Assembly (NCBI RefSeq): GCF_014203425.1
Contig: NZ_JACHJC010000001.1
Coordinates: 5,792,001 to 5,856,000 of the forward strand
Direction: 5' to 3'
Source: Micromonospora echinospora
GTDB taxonomy: Bacteria; Actinomycetota; Actinomycetes; Mycobacteriales; Micromonosporaceae
DNA length: 64,000 nucleotides
Below the pieces are notes generated by a model. It was not told the origin of the DNA, did not search any database, and saw only the letters and a list, made by a program, of their open reading frames with translations. The stretch's first letter is position 1. Every line of letters starts with the position of its first letter. Both the position numbers and the translations under genes were made by a program. Positions 23,291 through 55,572 of this stretch are shown here, in pieces.

Positions 23291-23660
23291 CCGCCGCTCC
23301 CCTCCCCGCCCTTCCCGCGCCTTCCGCGCGCAGAGGCACCCTTCCACGCCGCGCCCTTCCGCGCGCAGAGCGCCCTTCCCGCGCCACACCCTTCCCGCGC
23401 CCTTCCCGCGCCGAGCCATTCCTGCGCCCCTTCCGCGCCCTTCCGCGCACAGAGCACCCCTTCCGCGCCGAGCCATTCCTGCGCTCTTTCCCCTGTACCG
23501 CACCCTCTTCTGCACCCTGTCCGCGCCGCGCGTGTCCGTGCCTCTTTGCGCCTCCGCGCCGCGCGCGGCCGCCCACCCCTCCCCTCCCCTCCCCGCCACG
23601 TCGCGTCGCGCCACGCCGCGCCGCGCCGCGCCGCGCCCGACAGCCCACCCGTCCGCCGCT
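23291..23660. repeat. Pyrimidine-rich low-complexity tract with short direct repeats
   Basis: This gene-free stretch is strongly C/T-biased on the plus strand and built from variants of CCCTTCCCGCGCC. A 20-bp direct repeat GCGCCGAGCCATTCCTGCGC occurs at 23408-23427 and 23465-23484 (57 bp apart). CTTCCGCGCGCAGAG occurs at 23321 and 23356, with one mismatch at 23440. No ribosome site or plausible protein was found; minus-strand frames through it are Arg/Gly-rich artefacts. Confidence 0.7.
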
Positions 23661-23661
23661 C

Positions 23662-23720
23662 GTGATCAAGGAGTTTGTGTCCCCCGCGGTCGCCCAGGCG
23701 GACACAAACTCCTTGATCAC
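23662..23720. repeat. 57-bp TGATCA-bounded palindromic element, copy 1
   Basis: A 21-bp perfect inverted repeat (23662-23682 with 23700-23720, arm GTGATCAAGGAGTTTGTGTC plus one) surrounds a 17-nt GC-rich loop. Measured between the outer TGATCA hexamers it is 57 bp (23663-23719). Confidence 0.9.
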
Positions 23721-23767
23721 CGCCGCCTGGTGGCTGGCAAGTGGTGGGTGCGCCCCCGTCCGAGGCC

Positions 23768-23826
23768 GTGATCAAGGGGTTTGTGTCACCGACGGTGCGC
23801 GAAATTGCCTCAAACTCCTTGATCAC
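23768..23826. repeat. 57-bp TGATCA-bounded palindromic element, copy 2
   Basis: The left arm GTGATCAAGGGGTTTGTGTC matches copy 1 in 19 of 20 positions. The right arm keeps CAAACTCCTTGATCAC (23811-23826) but has lost the inner GACA pairing. The TGATCA-to-TGATCA span is again exactly 57 bp (23769-23825). Confidence 0.88.
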
Positions 23827-24012
23827 CGAGGCCCGGCCGGGCACGGGAGCGCAGGGTGGCCGGCGCGCTGGGCGGTGGGCGGTCGGCGTAAGGCGTCGGG
23901 CGTGGAGGGCGAGCGCTGGGGCTTGGGGTGAATGTCGGCGGTGACCCGTGACGGCACCGGTCTTGGGAGCGGACTGCGGTTCCGCCCATGTGGACAAGCC
24001 GCGCGATGGGAG

Positions 24013-24066
24013 AGAGATCTTGGTAGGAAATGGCCCCCATGAGGGCGCTTTCCTACCAAGATCTCT
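24013..24066. repeat. 50-bp AGATCT-bounded palindromic element
   Basis: An 18-bp perfect inverted repeat (24013-24030 with 24049-24066, arm AGAGATCTTGGTAGGAAA) has a short GCCC/GGGC inner stem. The AGATCT-to-AGATCT span is 50 bp (24015-24064). A related element of the same length lies inside the gene at 42298-42347. Confidence 0.9.
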
Positions 24067-24184
24067 TGTGGTCCTGGGAAGTGGAACGGTGCTCTCGGTG
24101 AATGGAACAGCCGGGAGGGCGTGAGCCCGGGTGGTGCGCGTCGGCGGCGGAGCGGGAGAGCGCCAGGCCGACCGCACGGGGCGG

Positions 24185-24241
24185 TGATCATGAGGTTGGC
24201 GGGGACAAAAGGGACCGCCGGTGCCGCCAACTTCATGATCA
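24185..24241. repeat. 57-bp TGATCA-bounded palindromic element, second sequence type
   Basis: TGATCATGAGGTTGGCGG (24185-24202) pairs with 24224-24241 with one G.T pair. The span between the outer TGATCA hexamers is 57 bp, the same as the two upstream copies, although arm and loop sequences differ. Confidence 0.85.
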
Positions 24242-24292
24242 ACGCGCGCGGGGCGAGGGCGGTGCCGGGGGCAGGCGGGAGGGGGAAAAGCG

Positions 24293-24327
24293 GCAGGCCC
24301 GCTACCCCGGGAGGGGTGCGGGCCTGC
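24293..24327 (-). terminator. Hairpin terminator downstream of ctaF
   Basis: GCAGGCCCGC (24293-24302) pairs with GCGGGCCTGC (24318-24327). It lies 15 bp after the ctaF stop on the minus strand. Confidence 0.7.
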
Positions 24328-24341
24328 GGTGGTGCTTCGGG

Positions 24342-27075: not shown

Positions 27076-27290
27076 GCGAGCCGGACGAGGTGCTGGACTG
27101 CCGGGGGCAGCGCTGTCCCCTGCCGGTGATCAATCTCGCCCGGCTGGTGCCGGGGCTGCCGGCGGGCGCGGTGGTGCGGGTGCTGGCCGACGACCCGGCG
27201 GCGGCGGTGGACATCCCGGCGTGGTGCCGGATGCGCGGGCACGAGTTCCTCGCCGCGCACGAGGGGCCCGCCTACGACGTCCGGGTGTAA
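27072..27290 (+). CDS. TusA/SirA-like sulfurtransferase
   Basis: This 72-residue sulfur carrier is of the TusA/YedF/SirA family. The family signature is LDCRGQRCPLPVINL near the N-terminus; the second Cys (CPLP) is the persulfide-carrying residue. The rest has the expected beta-alpha pattern, with VVRVLADDPAAAVDIPAWC and GHEFL. It is translationally coupled to the cysteine desulfurase (GTG overlapping its stop). The final TAA stop (27288-27290) is the first three bases of a dispersed palindromic repeat, so the repeat defines the end of the protein. Length is normal for the family, so no truncation is apparent. Confidence 0.88.
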   Translation: MSEPDEVLDCRGQRCPLPVINLARLVPGLPAGAVVRVLADDPAAAVDIPAWCRMRGHEFLAAHEGPAYDVRV

Positions 27291-27343
27291 GGAAGGGCCC
27301 CTTCTTAACGCCTCCGGTAGAGGAAGGGGCCCTTCTTAACACC
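27287..27343. repeat. Double AAGGGGCCCTT palindromic element, copy A
   Basis: Module 1 (27288-27309, TAAGGAAGGGCCCCTTCTTAAC) ends AACGCC and module 2 (27319-27340) ends AACACC. GAAGGGCCCCTTC (27292-27304) and GAAGGGGCCCTTC (27323-27335) are exact reverse complements, giving a 13-bp hairpin with an 18-nt loop. It sits between the convergent tusA-like and P-loop kinase genes. Confidence 0.88.
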
Positions 27344-41800: not shown

Positions 41801-44732
41801 GGCACCACCCGCTTACCCGGGTTCCGTGCCCGCACAGCAGACCGCCGACAGGCCGGCCGTACCCACGTCGGCCGGACCGGTCGAGCAGCGAACCGACGCC
41901 AGGCCCGCCGACTCGGTGGAGCACCCCGCCCCGACCGCGCCCCGGCCCGGCGACGAGCCCGTCGCCACCGGCGAGCCCGAAGCCGGACCGGACGCCGGAG
42001 CCACGCCGGGGGCGGATGCCGGTCGTCGCGAGTCCGAGCTGAGCGCTCCGTCCACGTCGGCCACTGAGACCAACCGGCCCGACGCCACAGTCACCCCCCA
42101 GCCCACGCCCGGAACAGGGCAAACGGCAACCGGCCCGGCCATCGACCGGACCCACGAGCCGTCGGAGCAAGCCAAGCACCCCCATGCGGAGACGACGACC
42201 ACTCCGTCCTCCCCCGCCACGGACTCCGGCCCCGAGGCATGGTTCCGCCCCAGCCAGCCCACCACCCCGGTCGCCGCCGAGGCTCCGAAACCGCCGGAGA
42301 TCTTGGAAGATTTCGGCCCCCCTGGGGGCCATTTCGTACCAAGATCTTCGGCGGACCGAGCTGAGCCGGCGACGCCCCACCCAGGGGCGCCAGCGGGAGA
42401 TGCCGCCGCAATGTCGGCCCGTGTCTCCGGGGCGGGTGCGGACGGGGTGGGCACGGCCTCGACGCTGCCCGGGACCGGCGTCACCACCCCGTCCGACGCC
42501 GCAACCAGCAACGACACACCGGCTGCACCGGCCGCCACCAGCACCAGCACCAGCACCAGCACCAGCACCAGCACATCCACAAGCACCGCCGACGCGCCGA
42601 CCCGCCCCACACCGAGCGCCGACGTGCCAGCCGGTGGCACACCGGCGGAGCGAGGAACGACCACCGACCCGGCGGCCGGACGCCTGGACACGTCGGCCGG
42701 GCCCGCCTCCGGCGGCGAGAACGCGGGCAATCGCATGTCCGCCGACACCGCAAGCGGCGGGCCGGTCACCGACGCCGAACCGCCGGTCACTGTGGAGGCG
42801 GCACCCGGCGCGACCGCGCCCACATCGGATTCCGCGCCGAACGGCACCACTCCCTCCGTCGACGCCGGAGCCACGCGGGGCGCAGCGGCATCAGAGGCCA
42901 TCGGTGGGGCACCGACGGAACCGACGGCAACCGACGACCCGCACGGGTCCGCTCACACCGAGGACAGGGCCGCCGCGCCGGAGCCGGTCGGCACCCCGGT
43001 CCACAGCGACCGCACCGACCTCCCAGCCGCGCAACCGGAGCCCGTCGGCATCCCCGCCGCCGCCGAGCGCACCGGCATCACAACCTCGCAGCCGGAACCC
43101 GCCGACACCGACCACACCACCGACATCGCAGCGCCGCAACAGGAGCCCGCCGGCACCCCTTCCGCCGGGCCGGGCGACGACTCCGGCAACGAGACCACGC
43201 CGACCGACGCGACCGGTGACCCGGACCCCGCACCCGCCGAACCCGCGACCGGCGGCGAGCCCGCAGCCCACACCGACGCCGCAGCCGTCGACCCGGAGCA
43301 CGACCGCGAGCCCACACCACCCGAGCCGACCGACGCGCCGACCGGTCAGACCGACAACGCGCCGACTCCCCGTACACAAGAACCGGACGCCGAAGCGGAC
43401 GCCGAGCCGCCGGTACCGCCGCCGGCGGACCCGGAGCAGGCCCTCGCCGCGGTCGGTTGGCGGCTGGATCCGCGTACGCTGCGCGAGGAGGCGCCCGATC
43501 CGGCGCAGTTGCGGCTGATCCGGGACGGCCTGACCGGCAAGCTCGACACCACACTGGACAACCGTGGCCGGGCCCGGCTGCTGAGCCTGCGGGCGGTGGC
43601 GTCGCGGATCCTCGGCGACCTGGACGACGCGCTCGGGGACGCGCGGCTGGCCGTCACGTACGCGGAATCGACAGGTGAGCTGCGGCGTAGCGCACTGGCC
43701 CGCGCCCGCCTGGCCGAGGCGCTGCGGTGGCGGGGTGACCACGCGGAGGCCGACCGGCTCTTCGCCGAGGCGAACTCGCCGGAGCTGCCGGACCCGCTGC
43801 GCGCGCTGCTGCACGAGCACGCCGGGCGGAGCTGCTACGACCAGGGCCGGCTAACCGAGGCGTGCCTGCACTTCGAGCGGGCGCTGGACCTGCGTCACGG
43901 CGAGGACGCGCCGATGAACGCGCGCGTCGAGGTGGCGCTGGACGCGGTCGCGGAGCGGGCCGCCGCCGACGGTTTCGGTCCCGCGCCGCGCCGGCCCGAG
44001 GAGGTGCTCGGCGCCCCGCGTCTCCCGGTGGCGACGTTCGACGAGGAGCAGCAGCTCTGGGGGTACGCGAACGCCGACGGCGAGATGGTGATCACGCACC
44101 GGTACGCCGAGGCGCAGCCGTTCCACGAAGGGCTGGCCTGGGTACGGCGTCCGGAGGCGTCCCGCTGGGCGCTGATCGACACGTCCGGCGCGGCGCTGAT
44201 CGAGGCGAACAACGGCTACCGGGCGGTGGGCGCCTTCTCCGAAGGGCTGTCCTGGGTGTCGATGGACGGCAAGGGCCGCTGGATGGCCGTCGACCGGATG
44301 AACATCGTGCGGATCCCGCCCGGGTACGAGGAGGTCAGGCCGTTCCGCAACGGCCTGGCTGCGGTACGGCAGAACGGCGGCTGGGGCGCGGTGGACCTCA
44401 CCGGCGAGGTGGTGGTGCCGACCCGGTACCACGGTCTCGGTACGCCGCTGGCCGACGGGCGGAGGGTGGACGGGTTCACCGCCGACGGCCTGGCAGTAAT
44501 CGAGCTGGCCGGTCGCCGGGGCGTGGTGGACCGCAGCGGCCGGGTGGTGGTCACGCCGGCGTACCCGACCGTGGTGGTGCATCCGGTGGCGTTCCTGGTC
44601 GCCACGGAGTCGGGCCGATGGGGCGCGCTGGACCGGCGCGGCGAGCCGCTCATCGACCCGGTGCACCCCGGCCGCGCGGCGGTGGTCGCGGAGATCGACC
44701 GGCTGCTCGCCGACGCCAGCCCGGTGCTCTGA
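38895..44732 (+). CDS. Giant low-complexity protein with C-terminal TPR-like and WG repeats
   Basis: This is a 1,945-residue protein with no signal peptide or membrane segment seen. Residues 1-55 contain a Trp-rich start (SGWGSWREPAEPAW). Residues 56-250 hold a dozen or more (V/I)SPAG-type repeats. Residues 250-1510 are Pro/Arg/Asp- then Pro/Thr/Ala-rich and predicted disordered, with VSGPAVSGPPVSGP and (ST)n runs. Residues 1516-1690 are helical and TPR-like (ARLLSLRAVASRILGDLDDA, ACLHFERALDLRHG). Residues 1706-1945 carry about six WG-type repeats (W1722 in LWGYANADG, then RWALIDTSG, GWGAVDLTG, RRGVVDRSG, RWGALDRRG). A palindromic repeat lies in frame near residue 1135. ATG 38895 follows GGGAGGGG. 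The function is unknown; a scaffold or adhesion role is speculation. Confidence 0.85.
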   Translation: MSGWGSWREPAEPAWAAEPTHEWQPQFPGQRYPGDIGIENLTPRRRAVVGRAEVRPVSPTPDADPYPVSPAGANPVSPAGFHPVRPAPDADPYPVSPAGAHPISPAGFHPVSPASGDAYPVSPAGPRPGRTAHGGSGHPVRPAGSRDAHPISPAGPRRADPVSPAGPRDAYPVSPAGPRDAYPTSPAGPGSTYPAGPASPGGTYPTSPAGPRGTHPAGPHGTYPNGPAGPRGAEPAGSGGPRGGGPAGPAASRGAYPVGPAGHGGQRPAGSTPDDRRGHPTDGRRPWPEDRHRTGPPTPPEQRLDQRWVRPDAAPRRPSQPGWMPEPNEFPHDAERRADRPHQADGRRAPVEGPPAASEQRWGPASDARRDHSPAGRRESTPDGRRDRFPDERREPPFDGRRDHGAGRPADRRDDAVSPLERGAAGWGQPGRDGWRGTDGDGWRDPSRRPPVERREPVDGRAPADHRSPTDGRAPTGGRSPADGRAPGREAAAYPETQRRAPENGHPQTEPDRYGAPRPAADQRWQGQRPPADRSRPHQGEWPIVEPRSRPEPDTRRPDERQRPQEERPAPQRYPVPPSDAARPDARHPEQGSSVRPGSRDTRPTGPGNQSDLAGHRDEARSQPSATRPPTAMPRPEPGRSQPDAAARPEAPAPQWPTRPDSPRPGSPDRSPAQPDDRRSSPDARRPAPPDERRSTPPVQWPVRPAGHPPPRVADGRETGPVEPAAHTRPDDRPRVAPGRPDPVPPSAAPGRSGEGSATPRTGDTPRPASPEPQAGVSVAGTPASGAVTPAASPSDAPISRAPASGVPVAGDRPSGVRDSGPAVSDLPVSGPAVSGPPVSGPAVSRVPASGAPTSAAPASGASTTSAPTSRVPTFDAPASDAPAPGASTSDAPNSGAPKSAAPTTSASTSGASAFGASAAGVQGPGGPGATGRSEGATRPTPPQDRTGERPGSPSTDRVSPAQAATARPAPPAYPGSVPAQQTADRPAVPTSAGPVEQRTDARPADSVEHPAPTAPRPGDEPVATGEPEAGPDAGATPGADAGRRESELSAPSTSATETNRPDATVTPQPTPGTGQTATGPAIDRTHEPSEQAKHPHAETTTTPSSPATDSGPEAWFRPSQPTTPVAAEAPKPPEILEDFGPPGGHFVPRSSADRAEPATPHPGAPAGDAAAMSARVSGAGADGVGTASTLPGTGVTTPSDAATSNDTPAAPAATSTSTSTSTSTSTSTSTADAPTRPTPSADVPAGGTPAERGTTTDPAAGRLDTSAGPASGGENAGNRMSADTASGGPVTDAEPPVTVEAAPGATAPTSDSAPNGTTPSVDAGATRGAAASEAIGGAPTEPTATDDPHGSAHTEDRAAAPEPVGTPVHSDRTDLPAAQPEPVGIPAAAERTGITTSQPEPADTDHTTDIAAPQQEPAGTPSAGPGDDSGNETTPTDATGDPDPAPAEPATGGEPAAHTDAAAVDPEHDREPTPPEPTDAPTGQTDNAPTPRTQEPDAEADAEPPVPPPADPEQALAAVGWRLDPRTLREEAPDPAQLRLIRDGLTGKLDTTLDNRGRARLLSLRAVASRILGDLDDALGDARLAVTYAESTGELRRSALARARLAEALRWRGDHAEADRLFAEANSPELPDPLRALLHEHAGRSCYDQGRLTEACLHFERALDLRHGEDAPMNARVEVALDAVAERAAADGFGPAPRRPEEVLGAPRLPVATFDEEQQLWGYANADGEMVITHRYAEAQPFHEGLAWVRRPEASRWALIDTSGAALIEANNGYRAVGAFSEGLSWVSMDGKGRWMAVDRMNIVRIPPGYEEVRPFRNGLAAVRQNGGWGAVDLTGEVVVPTRYHGLGTPLADGRRVDGFTADGLAVIELAGRRGVVDRSGRVVVTPAYPTVVVHPVAFLVATESGRWGALDRRGEPLIDPVHPGRAAVVAEIDRLLADASPVL
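42298..42347. repeat. 50-bp AGATCT-bounded palindromic element inside the WG-repeat gene
   Basis: Reverse-complemented, it matches the element at 24015-24064 in AGATCTTGGTA-GAAATGGCCCCCA with one mismatch and has the same 50-bp span. Outer (AGATCTTGG) and inner (GGCCCCC) stems are kept, with a mismatched middle. It is read in frame as EILEDFGPPGGHFVPRSS. Confidence 0.88.
42535..42585 (+). repeat. AGCACC hexanucleotide microsatellite in the WG-repeat gene
   Basis: About seven near-perfect tandem copies of AGCACC encode alternating Ser-Thr. Being a multiple of three, copy-number change would alter length without frameshift. Confidence 0.8.
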
Positions 44733-55515: not shown

Positions 55516-55572
55516 GTAAGGAAGGGCCCCTTCTTAACGCCTGGCGTTGTAGAAGGGGCCCTTTTTAACACC
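55516..55572. repeat. Double AAGGGGCCCTT palindromic element, copy B
   Basis: Module 1 GTAAGGAAGGGCCCCTTCTT (from 55516) ends AACGCC and is identical to copy A over the module. Module 2 is GTAGAAGGGGCCCTTTTTAA followed by CACC. It lies between the convergent pepA and the 109-residue gene. Confidence 0.88.

Follow-up and report, generated by a model that had tools for sequence, protein, structure and literature searches.

Palindromes in the gap beside the ctaF-like gene

A single intergenic gap of the Micromonospora echinospora chromosome holds four long palindromes, and the question raised by this locus is what kind of element they are, how such elements came to be repeated and why they would be kept. 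The stretch analysed here (the window) comprises 64,000 nucleotides, and it was compared with sequence from the same genome and from other genomes. Three of the four palindromes (23663-23719, 23769-23825 and 24185-24241) are bounded by TGATCA and span 57 bp each, and one (24015-24064) is bounded by AGATCT and spans 50 bp, as read from the sequence and a palindrome scan of the window, which confirms the positions and spans given in a preliminary description of this DNA. The gap that holds them (Table 1) is flanked, according to a simple gene caller, by a small plus-strand ORF following a gene that we take to be trpD-like and by a minus-strand gene that we take to be ctaF-like. At the first type I palindrome, base pairing reaches out to 23662-23720.

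Table 1. Palindromic elements and accompanying features of the window (positions counted from its first nucleotide)
Feature	Position	Strand	Basis
Type I palindrome, 57 bp, two inverted half-sites TGATCAAGGAGTTTGTGTC	23663..23719	.	palindrome scan; arm search
Type I palindrome, 57 bp, inner stem less perfect	23769..23825	.	palindrome scan
Type II palindrome, 50 bp, outer AGATCTTGG blocks and inner GGCCCC..GGGC block	24015..24064	.	palindrome scan
Type III palindrome, 57 bp, half-site TGATCATGAGGTTGGCGG	24185..24241	.	palindrome scan
Type II palindrome, 50 bp, fifth member, beyond 23662..24241	42298..42347	.	palindrome scan; AGATCT-pair search
Convergent intergenic gap holding all four elements	23291..24341	.	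simple gene caller
Separate GC-rich hairpin, outside the element families	24293..24327	.	read from sequence

Perfect 16-bp arms at spans of 30-80 occur four times in the window and in none of six first-order Markov sequences; when one mismatch is allowed in the 16-bp arms, the window contains ten such palindromes, compared with 0 or 1 in the first-order Markov sequences. The GC-rich hairpin of the table lies directly past the stop of the minus-strand ctaF-like gene, similar hairpins are found at that place in most of 30 ctaF loci, and it is probably the ordinary terminator of this gene. No known RNA family was recognised; Rfam gave no match at gathering score in the window or in seven further loci; the sub-threshold matches belonged mostly to microRNA models.

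Families and spans across the genome

The elements are repeated throughout the genome. The type I arm TGATCAAGGAGTTTGTGTC, with up to 3 mismatches, was found at 46+39 places, one of them the element at 23663..23719, compared with 0 for the reversed pattern, and almost every match in this genome is paired at about 57 bp. Moreover, the genome contains at least 69 TGATCA pairs at spans of 42-72 and 34 AGATCT pairs at spans of 35-65, five of the latter being judged chance pairs of unrelated sequence; for these two pair patterns, the reversed control of 0 is a weak control.

Family spans were taken from 484 kb of the genome (75 pieces, most of them around matches, and eight longer stretches, one of which contains the window), a sample that is no full census for types III, IV and V. 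The genome has about 40 type I elements, with a span of 57 bp in 34 of the 38 parsed, and at least 20 type III elements, with 57 bp in 18 of 20. Type II comprises about 29 elements, mostly of 50 bp (50 in 16 of 24 parsed, 60-62 in five). A few of the off-span elements of types I to III are parsing errors of the script. In the same sample, type IV spans 69-70 bp in 9 of 9 and type V spans 70-71 bp in 3 of 4, so that the span goes with the family. The type II elements with a span of 60-62 are located at G000:C1 1088221, 4664141, 5525976, 5880210 and 6548673. They depart from 50 bp because the inner GGGGCC block (the inner loop) is duplicated, a difference of about one helical turn.

Types I and III have arms of about 19 bp and a loop of about 19 bp. 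Every family head starts with GATC, most of them continuing as GATCnnGnnnTT and type II having GATCTTGG. As seen in the end logos, the GATC head lies within the paired arm at both ends, and outside it stands CG followed by G or T. The arms of the third element (type III in Table 1) had been described as unrelated to the others; in fact, 12 of the 19 positions match the type I arm, and these arms are related to those of the other types because all heads begin with GATC. The defined element class that had been proposed is upheld, as the palindromes recur across the genome at a family-specific constant span and form repeated elements that are REP-like in number and place.

Two other palindrome families were also observed in this genome. 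One has the arms AAGGGCCCCTTCT and the middle TTAACGCC and occurs in the window at 27290-27337 and 55522-55563 and at G000:C1 6717635; the other, of about 50 bp with arms TGGAACGNCATGGGTGTC and without GATC heads, occurs at G000:C1 1513656, 3138089 and 5557732. In addition, six near-identical genes for secreted proteins (about 190-196 aa, starting MNTILRKS) are found at about G000:C1 1702216, 2408359, 3931359, 4261953, 6447276 and 7014127, and four of them share about 840 bp of similar upstream DNA with type I, III, IV and V palindromes. This unit of about 840 bp at four loci was considered as an element of its own and rejected, being the shared upstream region of the near-identical genes; Rfam gave no match in the upstream DNA of these genes.

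Placement relative to genes and terminators

Types I and III lie mostly at the 3' ends of genes. Among 38 type I elements, 18 stand in convergent and 16 in tandem gaps, 2 in divergent gaps and 2 within called genes; the 20 type III elements comprise 9 convergent, 6 tandem, 3 divergent, 1 intragenic and 1 at an edge. For type II (n=24) the figures are 5 convergent, 12 tandem, 6 divergent and 1 intragenic, for type IV 8 tandem and 1 divergent, and for type V 2 tandem and 2 divergent. Measured against intergenic length in eight long stretches, divergent gaps are avoided by type I (p 6e-7) and type III (p 0.018); type II showed no significant orientation bias against intergenic length (p 0.09 for divergent). 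The skew of types I and III had a p of 0.0014 when tested by number of gaps. No clear skew was seen in genome G386, with 6 convergent, 6 tandem and 4 divergent elements and 2 at edges.

Perfect stems of at least 9 bp are scarce where these elements stand. They were found in 1/18 convergent, 1/19 tandem and 0/4 divergent gaps with type I or III, compared with 16/45, 21/109 and 3/64 of the respective gaps without any element (p 0.025 for convergent, 0.011 for convergent and tandem gaps together), a count that misses imperfect terminators such as the hairpin past the ctaF-like gene. Types I and III seem to replace ordinary terminator stems in their gaps. Among the 48 elements having a facing 3' end, 25 lie at most 56 bp from it, and the end logos show no U-rich flank at the elements. 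The elements share with intrinsic terminators that they are stable hairpins just downstream of genes, and they share with REPs in the broad sense that they are palindromic, repeated in the genome and mostly extragenic between convergent or unidirectional genes, type II doing so weakly as regards placement. The preliminary description had set them apart from simple terminators, a distinction that may or may not hold: their conserved sequence and fixed span exceed what a hairpin terminator needs, but types I and III occupy the places of terminators and seem to take over from them.

Along the chromosome, no significant bias relative to dnaA was found for type I (KS p 0.07) or type II (KS p 0.60), as calculated from hand-copied positions, and types I, II and III all occur near dnaA. 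The gap after dnaA (G000:C1 599170-600210) contains a type I element at 599241 and apparent type II and degraded type III elements, as well as DnaA-box-like sites at 600135 and 600203.

Conservation at orthologous sites

A ctaF match was found in 59/61 genomes, and 30 ctaF loci were inspected. The same four elements stand in the same order beside ctaF in G067 and G028; a subset of them, including type III at a like place, is present in G033, G026 and G040, and a related element with other arms lies near ctaF in G001, G003 and G012. No element was seen at the inspected ctaF locus of G030. In the same gap beside ctaF, G006 has a dissimilar 57-bp palindrome bounded by CATGTCGGCGACATG (L076, 1999-2055), and G062 has a 70-bp palindrome of the type IV kind (L094, 2134-2203).

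Rates of change were compared between this genome and its sister genome G028, where 25 sites could be aligned through and the 19 with recognisable arms were used, a requirement that biases the test toward slow arms. In these 19 pairs, 12/494 sites had changed in the outer 13 bp, 35/228 in the next 6 bp and 76/358 in the loop, compared with 399/2386 in the intergenic and 107/976 in the coding flank. Compared with the intergenic flank, the outer 13 bp evolve about seven times more slowly, and the loop is not slower. Gap events numbered 5 in 1080 element sites versus 101 in 2386 intergenic flank sites, and the span was equal in 18 of the 19 pairs. The outer half-sites and the span are therefore preserved while the loop drifts. 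A looser set of pairs gave 0.083 changes per site for type I arms versus 0.164 for the flank and 0.257 for the loop.

Six aligned sites were left out of the rate test (806530, 6127559, 830972, 1727788, 2867664 and 4287361). At 806530 and 6127559, a type I element in this genome corresponds to a type III element of the same span in G028; since the DNA beside these switches differs for some bases, independent gain is as possible as replacement. At 830972, 1727788 and 2867664 (given as 830958, 1727784 and 2867659 in the wider tally below), no element was detected in G028, where the gaps have diverged so that clean edges are not seen. Position 1727784 falls in a predicted gene, and G028 has sequence there that resembles one arm. 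At 4287361 (G000:C1), compared with G028:C1 3673536, the type I loop looks inverted while the arms stay in place.

A wider tally of 28 type I sites gave 19 with the same type in G028, 6 with none detected and 3 with type III, one of these 3 lying in an array and being left out of the switches. Two array positions with a switched score, 4526795 and 4526972, were not taken as switches. Position 2432988 was scored as none detected, yet a degraded element is visible there, and two more sites scored in this way lie in arrays with short aligned segments.

Base pairing and sequence

The elements fold stably as RNA and as DNA, with z values of -4.7 to -8.8 for the RNA. Within this genome, the two arms of an element do not match beyond chance at the variable positions 14, 16, 18 and 19 of type I or at positions 10, 14, 15 and 19 of type III. 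For type II, pairing in the mid-stem holds in 82.3% of cells versus 83.0% after shuffling, and position 10 shows a within-element match with a p of 0.026. When 14 species groups were pooled, arm position 14 matched in 91 elements versus 78.3 expected, position 18 gave a weak match (p 0.03) and position 16 none. The base pair just outside the 57 bp matched in 42/67 elements versus 27.2 expected with the families pooled, and by family the p values were 0.11 (I), 0.046 (III) and 0.23 (II). The matches at position 14 and at the outside pair suggest that pairing may matter too.

Two stronger signals of covariation were rejected. Alignment A1, with 34 both-side changes versus 12.1 after shuffling, mixes types I and III, and by family in this genome the signal is absent or weak; cross-species arm matching at positions 14, 16, 18 and 20 comes partly from species-wide letter shifts. 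Wobble-pair figures from that cross-species comparison were left out of account, since giving each element an alphabetical orientation biases them. Clade-wide shifts were seen for the span (57 to 56) and for arm position 16. Arm-to-arm covariation is weak or absent, and the pattern reads as sequence recognition first, with pairing or arm-to-arm exchange second.

Distribution in other genomes

A scan of 84,980 species genomes, in which the outer type I arms were held constant and the span could range over 42-72, yielded 102 stretches; among the 80 listed, 79 are in records named Micromonospora and one in Actinotalea. These 80 contain 83 elements, of which 58 span 57 bp, 20 span 56 bp and five have other spans (55, 60, 61, 46, 47). 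A covariance model of types I and III, built from 28 sequences, matches 63/63 of the congeners listed, 110/250 genomes of the family and 22/44 of its genera, and the model of type II, built from 21 sequences, matches 100/250 family genomes, 21/44 genera and 55/63 congeners. The match counts for types I and III are not copy numbers, because each palindrome is found from either strand and scoring was limited to 22 candidates in a genome. Over the class, the I/III model matches 42/296 genomes and 31/114 genera; the 42 include three congeners, and part of the matches lie near the threshold.

Several distant genomes repeat spans of their own, namely 58 in G363, 67 in G386 and G458, 68 in G359, 37 and 67 in G448, 80 in G310 and 56 in G499, and mixed spans are found in G422 and G504. 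The 67-bp unit of G386 is built from three half-sites, of which two are direct, at 30 bp, and the third is inverted; inverted pairs of 37 bp are found in this genome too. Units with similar loops in dissimilar flanks are found in G363 and, as L285 and L283, in G386, which indicates that copies have spread in some lineages.

Mobility and transposase

The transposase search covered Y1_Tnp (PF01797) over the whole genome, and no match to it was found in this complete genome. Among 30 other element-carrying genomes, seven of which are less than 90% complete, 28 had no Y1_Tnp match and two (G214 and G040) had one. Mobilisation in trans by a RAYT/Y1 enzyme, which had been suggested for these palindromes, is thus unsupported and was rejected as an explanation. 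Y1_Tnp is present in 6/21 genomes of one search set and in 5/12 of the congeners in it; given the latter figure, a RAYT may still have played an ancestral role. As for traces of insertion, 67 elements showed no excess of direct repeats of 2-9 bp at 0-4 bp from their ends. The 40 type I copies of this genome include one equal-span pair with similar loops, which is a local duplication; the duplicated copies upstream of the secreted-protein genes, which also have similar loops, are not among such pairs because their spans differ.

Explanations weighed

That palindromes of similar length arose by chance has a negligible probability, as it is contradicted by the genome-wide repetition and the constancy of the span, and no point in its support was found. 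A rather unlikely explanation is that the elements are non-autonomous and MITE-like, in which case the arms would be terminal inverted repeats for a non-RAYT transposase, the span would come from a master copy, and the placement would result from insertion preference together with removal from promoters and genes. The similar loops in dissimilar flanks, the genome-specific spans of 58, 67, 68 and 80 bp in distant genomes, the clade-wide shifts of span and of arm position 16, and the sites with an element detected in just one of the two sister species all agree with such an origin. However, target-site duplications are not in excess, the single equal-span pair with similar loops among the type I copies is local, no Y1_Tnp is resident, and orthologous copies that stay in place have kept their arms and span much more closely than the flanks are kept.

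Ordinary bidirectional hairpin terminators or stabilisers of mRNA 3' ends, for which the RNA stem alone would matter and the shared sequence would be a relic of common descent, might account for the closeness to stop codons, the small number of other stems in gaps with elements and the stable RNA folds; Streptomyces terminators, in the part of PMC12207403 available to us, likewise have no strong U-tracts, and their median distance to the gene is 66-76 nt. This explanation is nevertheless improbable, since the outer sequence is nearly fixed beyond what mere pairing would need, the span is fixed though the loop sequence is free, covariation is missing for types I and III in this genome and in the type II mid-stem, and there is no U-rich flank. 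Sites for a chromosome-structuring protein of the nucleoid or of segregation, with no direct role in transcription and merely tolerated in 3' gaps, would fit a fixed inverted site that recurs tens of times in a genome and the presence of all three types near dnaA. They are very improbable, as the elements show no significant dnaA-relative bias and terminator stems are scarce in the same gaps.

Half-site pairs as candidate boundaries of transcription

The reading favoured here, tentatively and just short of even chances, is that the elements form a REP-like superfamily of fixed-span GATC half-site pairs that is under selection and serves a putative factor ending transcription, with copies amplified without a resident Y1/RAYT enzyme. 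Each element consists of two GATC-headed half-sites in inverted orientation, the distance between them being constant at 57 bp for types I and III, 50 bp for type II and about 70 bp for types IV and V. Selection would keep the elements because a putative host factor recognises the sequence of the half-sites, most likely in double-stranded DNA. Between convergent or tandem genes, this factor might mark the point where transcription stops or enforce that stop, for either direction, acting as a terminator or as a roadblock. The copies may have been amplified by a process independent of any resident Y1/RAYT enzyme. To our knowledge, no protein is known to bind these half-sites. In favour of this reading count the slow outer arms and equal spans in the G028 pairs, the placement of type I, the few perfect stems in gaps with types I and III, the lack of arm matching beyond chance within this genome, the fixed direct and inverted arrangements in G386 and the two sites where types I and III stand for each other at equal span. 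Against it count the arm matches across species groups and at the outside pair, the smaller contrast in the looser set of pairs, the lack of a significant orientation bias in type II and of a clear one in G386, and the type I sites with no element detected in G028.

A wider proposal, possible though doubtful, is that of an actinomycete superfamily with modular GATC half-sites and lineage-fixed spacings, in which a putative duplex-reading protein delimits transcription units and arm types are interchangeable at one site. REP-like repeats are usually viewed as selfish DNA or as mere hairpins, and such a boundary system would be unlike either RAYT-driven REPs or hairpin terminators. Resident copies have retained outer sequence and spacing while species diverged, in a genome that has no REP-linked enzyme, and two orthologous sites bear different arm types of equal span. 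For seeking a gene-end factor in actinomycetes, bacteria with poorly understood transcription termination, the elements offer a bait of defined 57-bp sequence, sites throughout the family and clear-cut mutants.

Comparison with known systems

RAYT-driven REPs and REPINs consist of a short conserved unit that occurs in inverted pairs scattered over intergenic DNA. The present elements share this layout and differ in that Y1_Tnp is absent from this genome and from nearly all other carriers searched. The sites of SlmA, Noc and MatP are single short palindromes present in tens per chromosome with a bias in chromosome position. Like them, the elements occur in tens of copies per chromosome of a fixed symmetric site; unlike them, they have two half-sites at a long fixed spacing and no significant bias relative to dnaA. 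Topic searches of the open-licence literature turned up no account of these elements in Micromonospora or Actinomycetes, and searches with element sequence strings returned only unrelated papers among the matches listed.

With GC-rich actinomycete intrinsic terminators, as described in the available part of PMC12207403, the elements share stable hairpins downstream of genes and the lack of a strong U-tract, and they differ from those terminators in sharing sequence-specific outer arms and a fixed span in dozens of copies. The stem-loop repeats Bor, Ype and Efa, in the available part of PMC1590033, are likewise repeated palindromic families near 3' ends; however, they belong to other lineages, and GATC heads or fixed-span half-site pairs are not described in that part.

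The closest comparison is with the GTAG and CGTC REPs of PMC3733652, the available text of which makes no mention of Micromonospora, Streptomyces, Frankia, Salinispora, Actinobacteria or GATC. As reported there, these REPs are hairpins of 20-40 bp with stems of mostly 6-9 bp (up to 13), usually small loops and an unpaired GTAG or CGTC tag, and the CGTC REPs are said to be without a dedicated transposase. The present elements are likewise repeated, extragenic and palindromic, as are the REP dimers/BIMEs in the same account, with several families per genome, and stand mostly between unidirectional or convergent genes near 3' ends. They differ in having arms of about 19 bp around a loop of similar length in types I and III and a constant span of 50, 57 or 70 bp, and they carry no unpaired tag, the GATC lying in the paired part at both ends. 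Many type III elements do have the string CGTC at their edge, where it is paired and present on either side. As far as the available part of PMC3733652 defines these classes, the elements are REPs in the broad sense by place and number, and are not GTAG or CGTC REPs.
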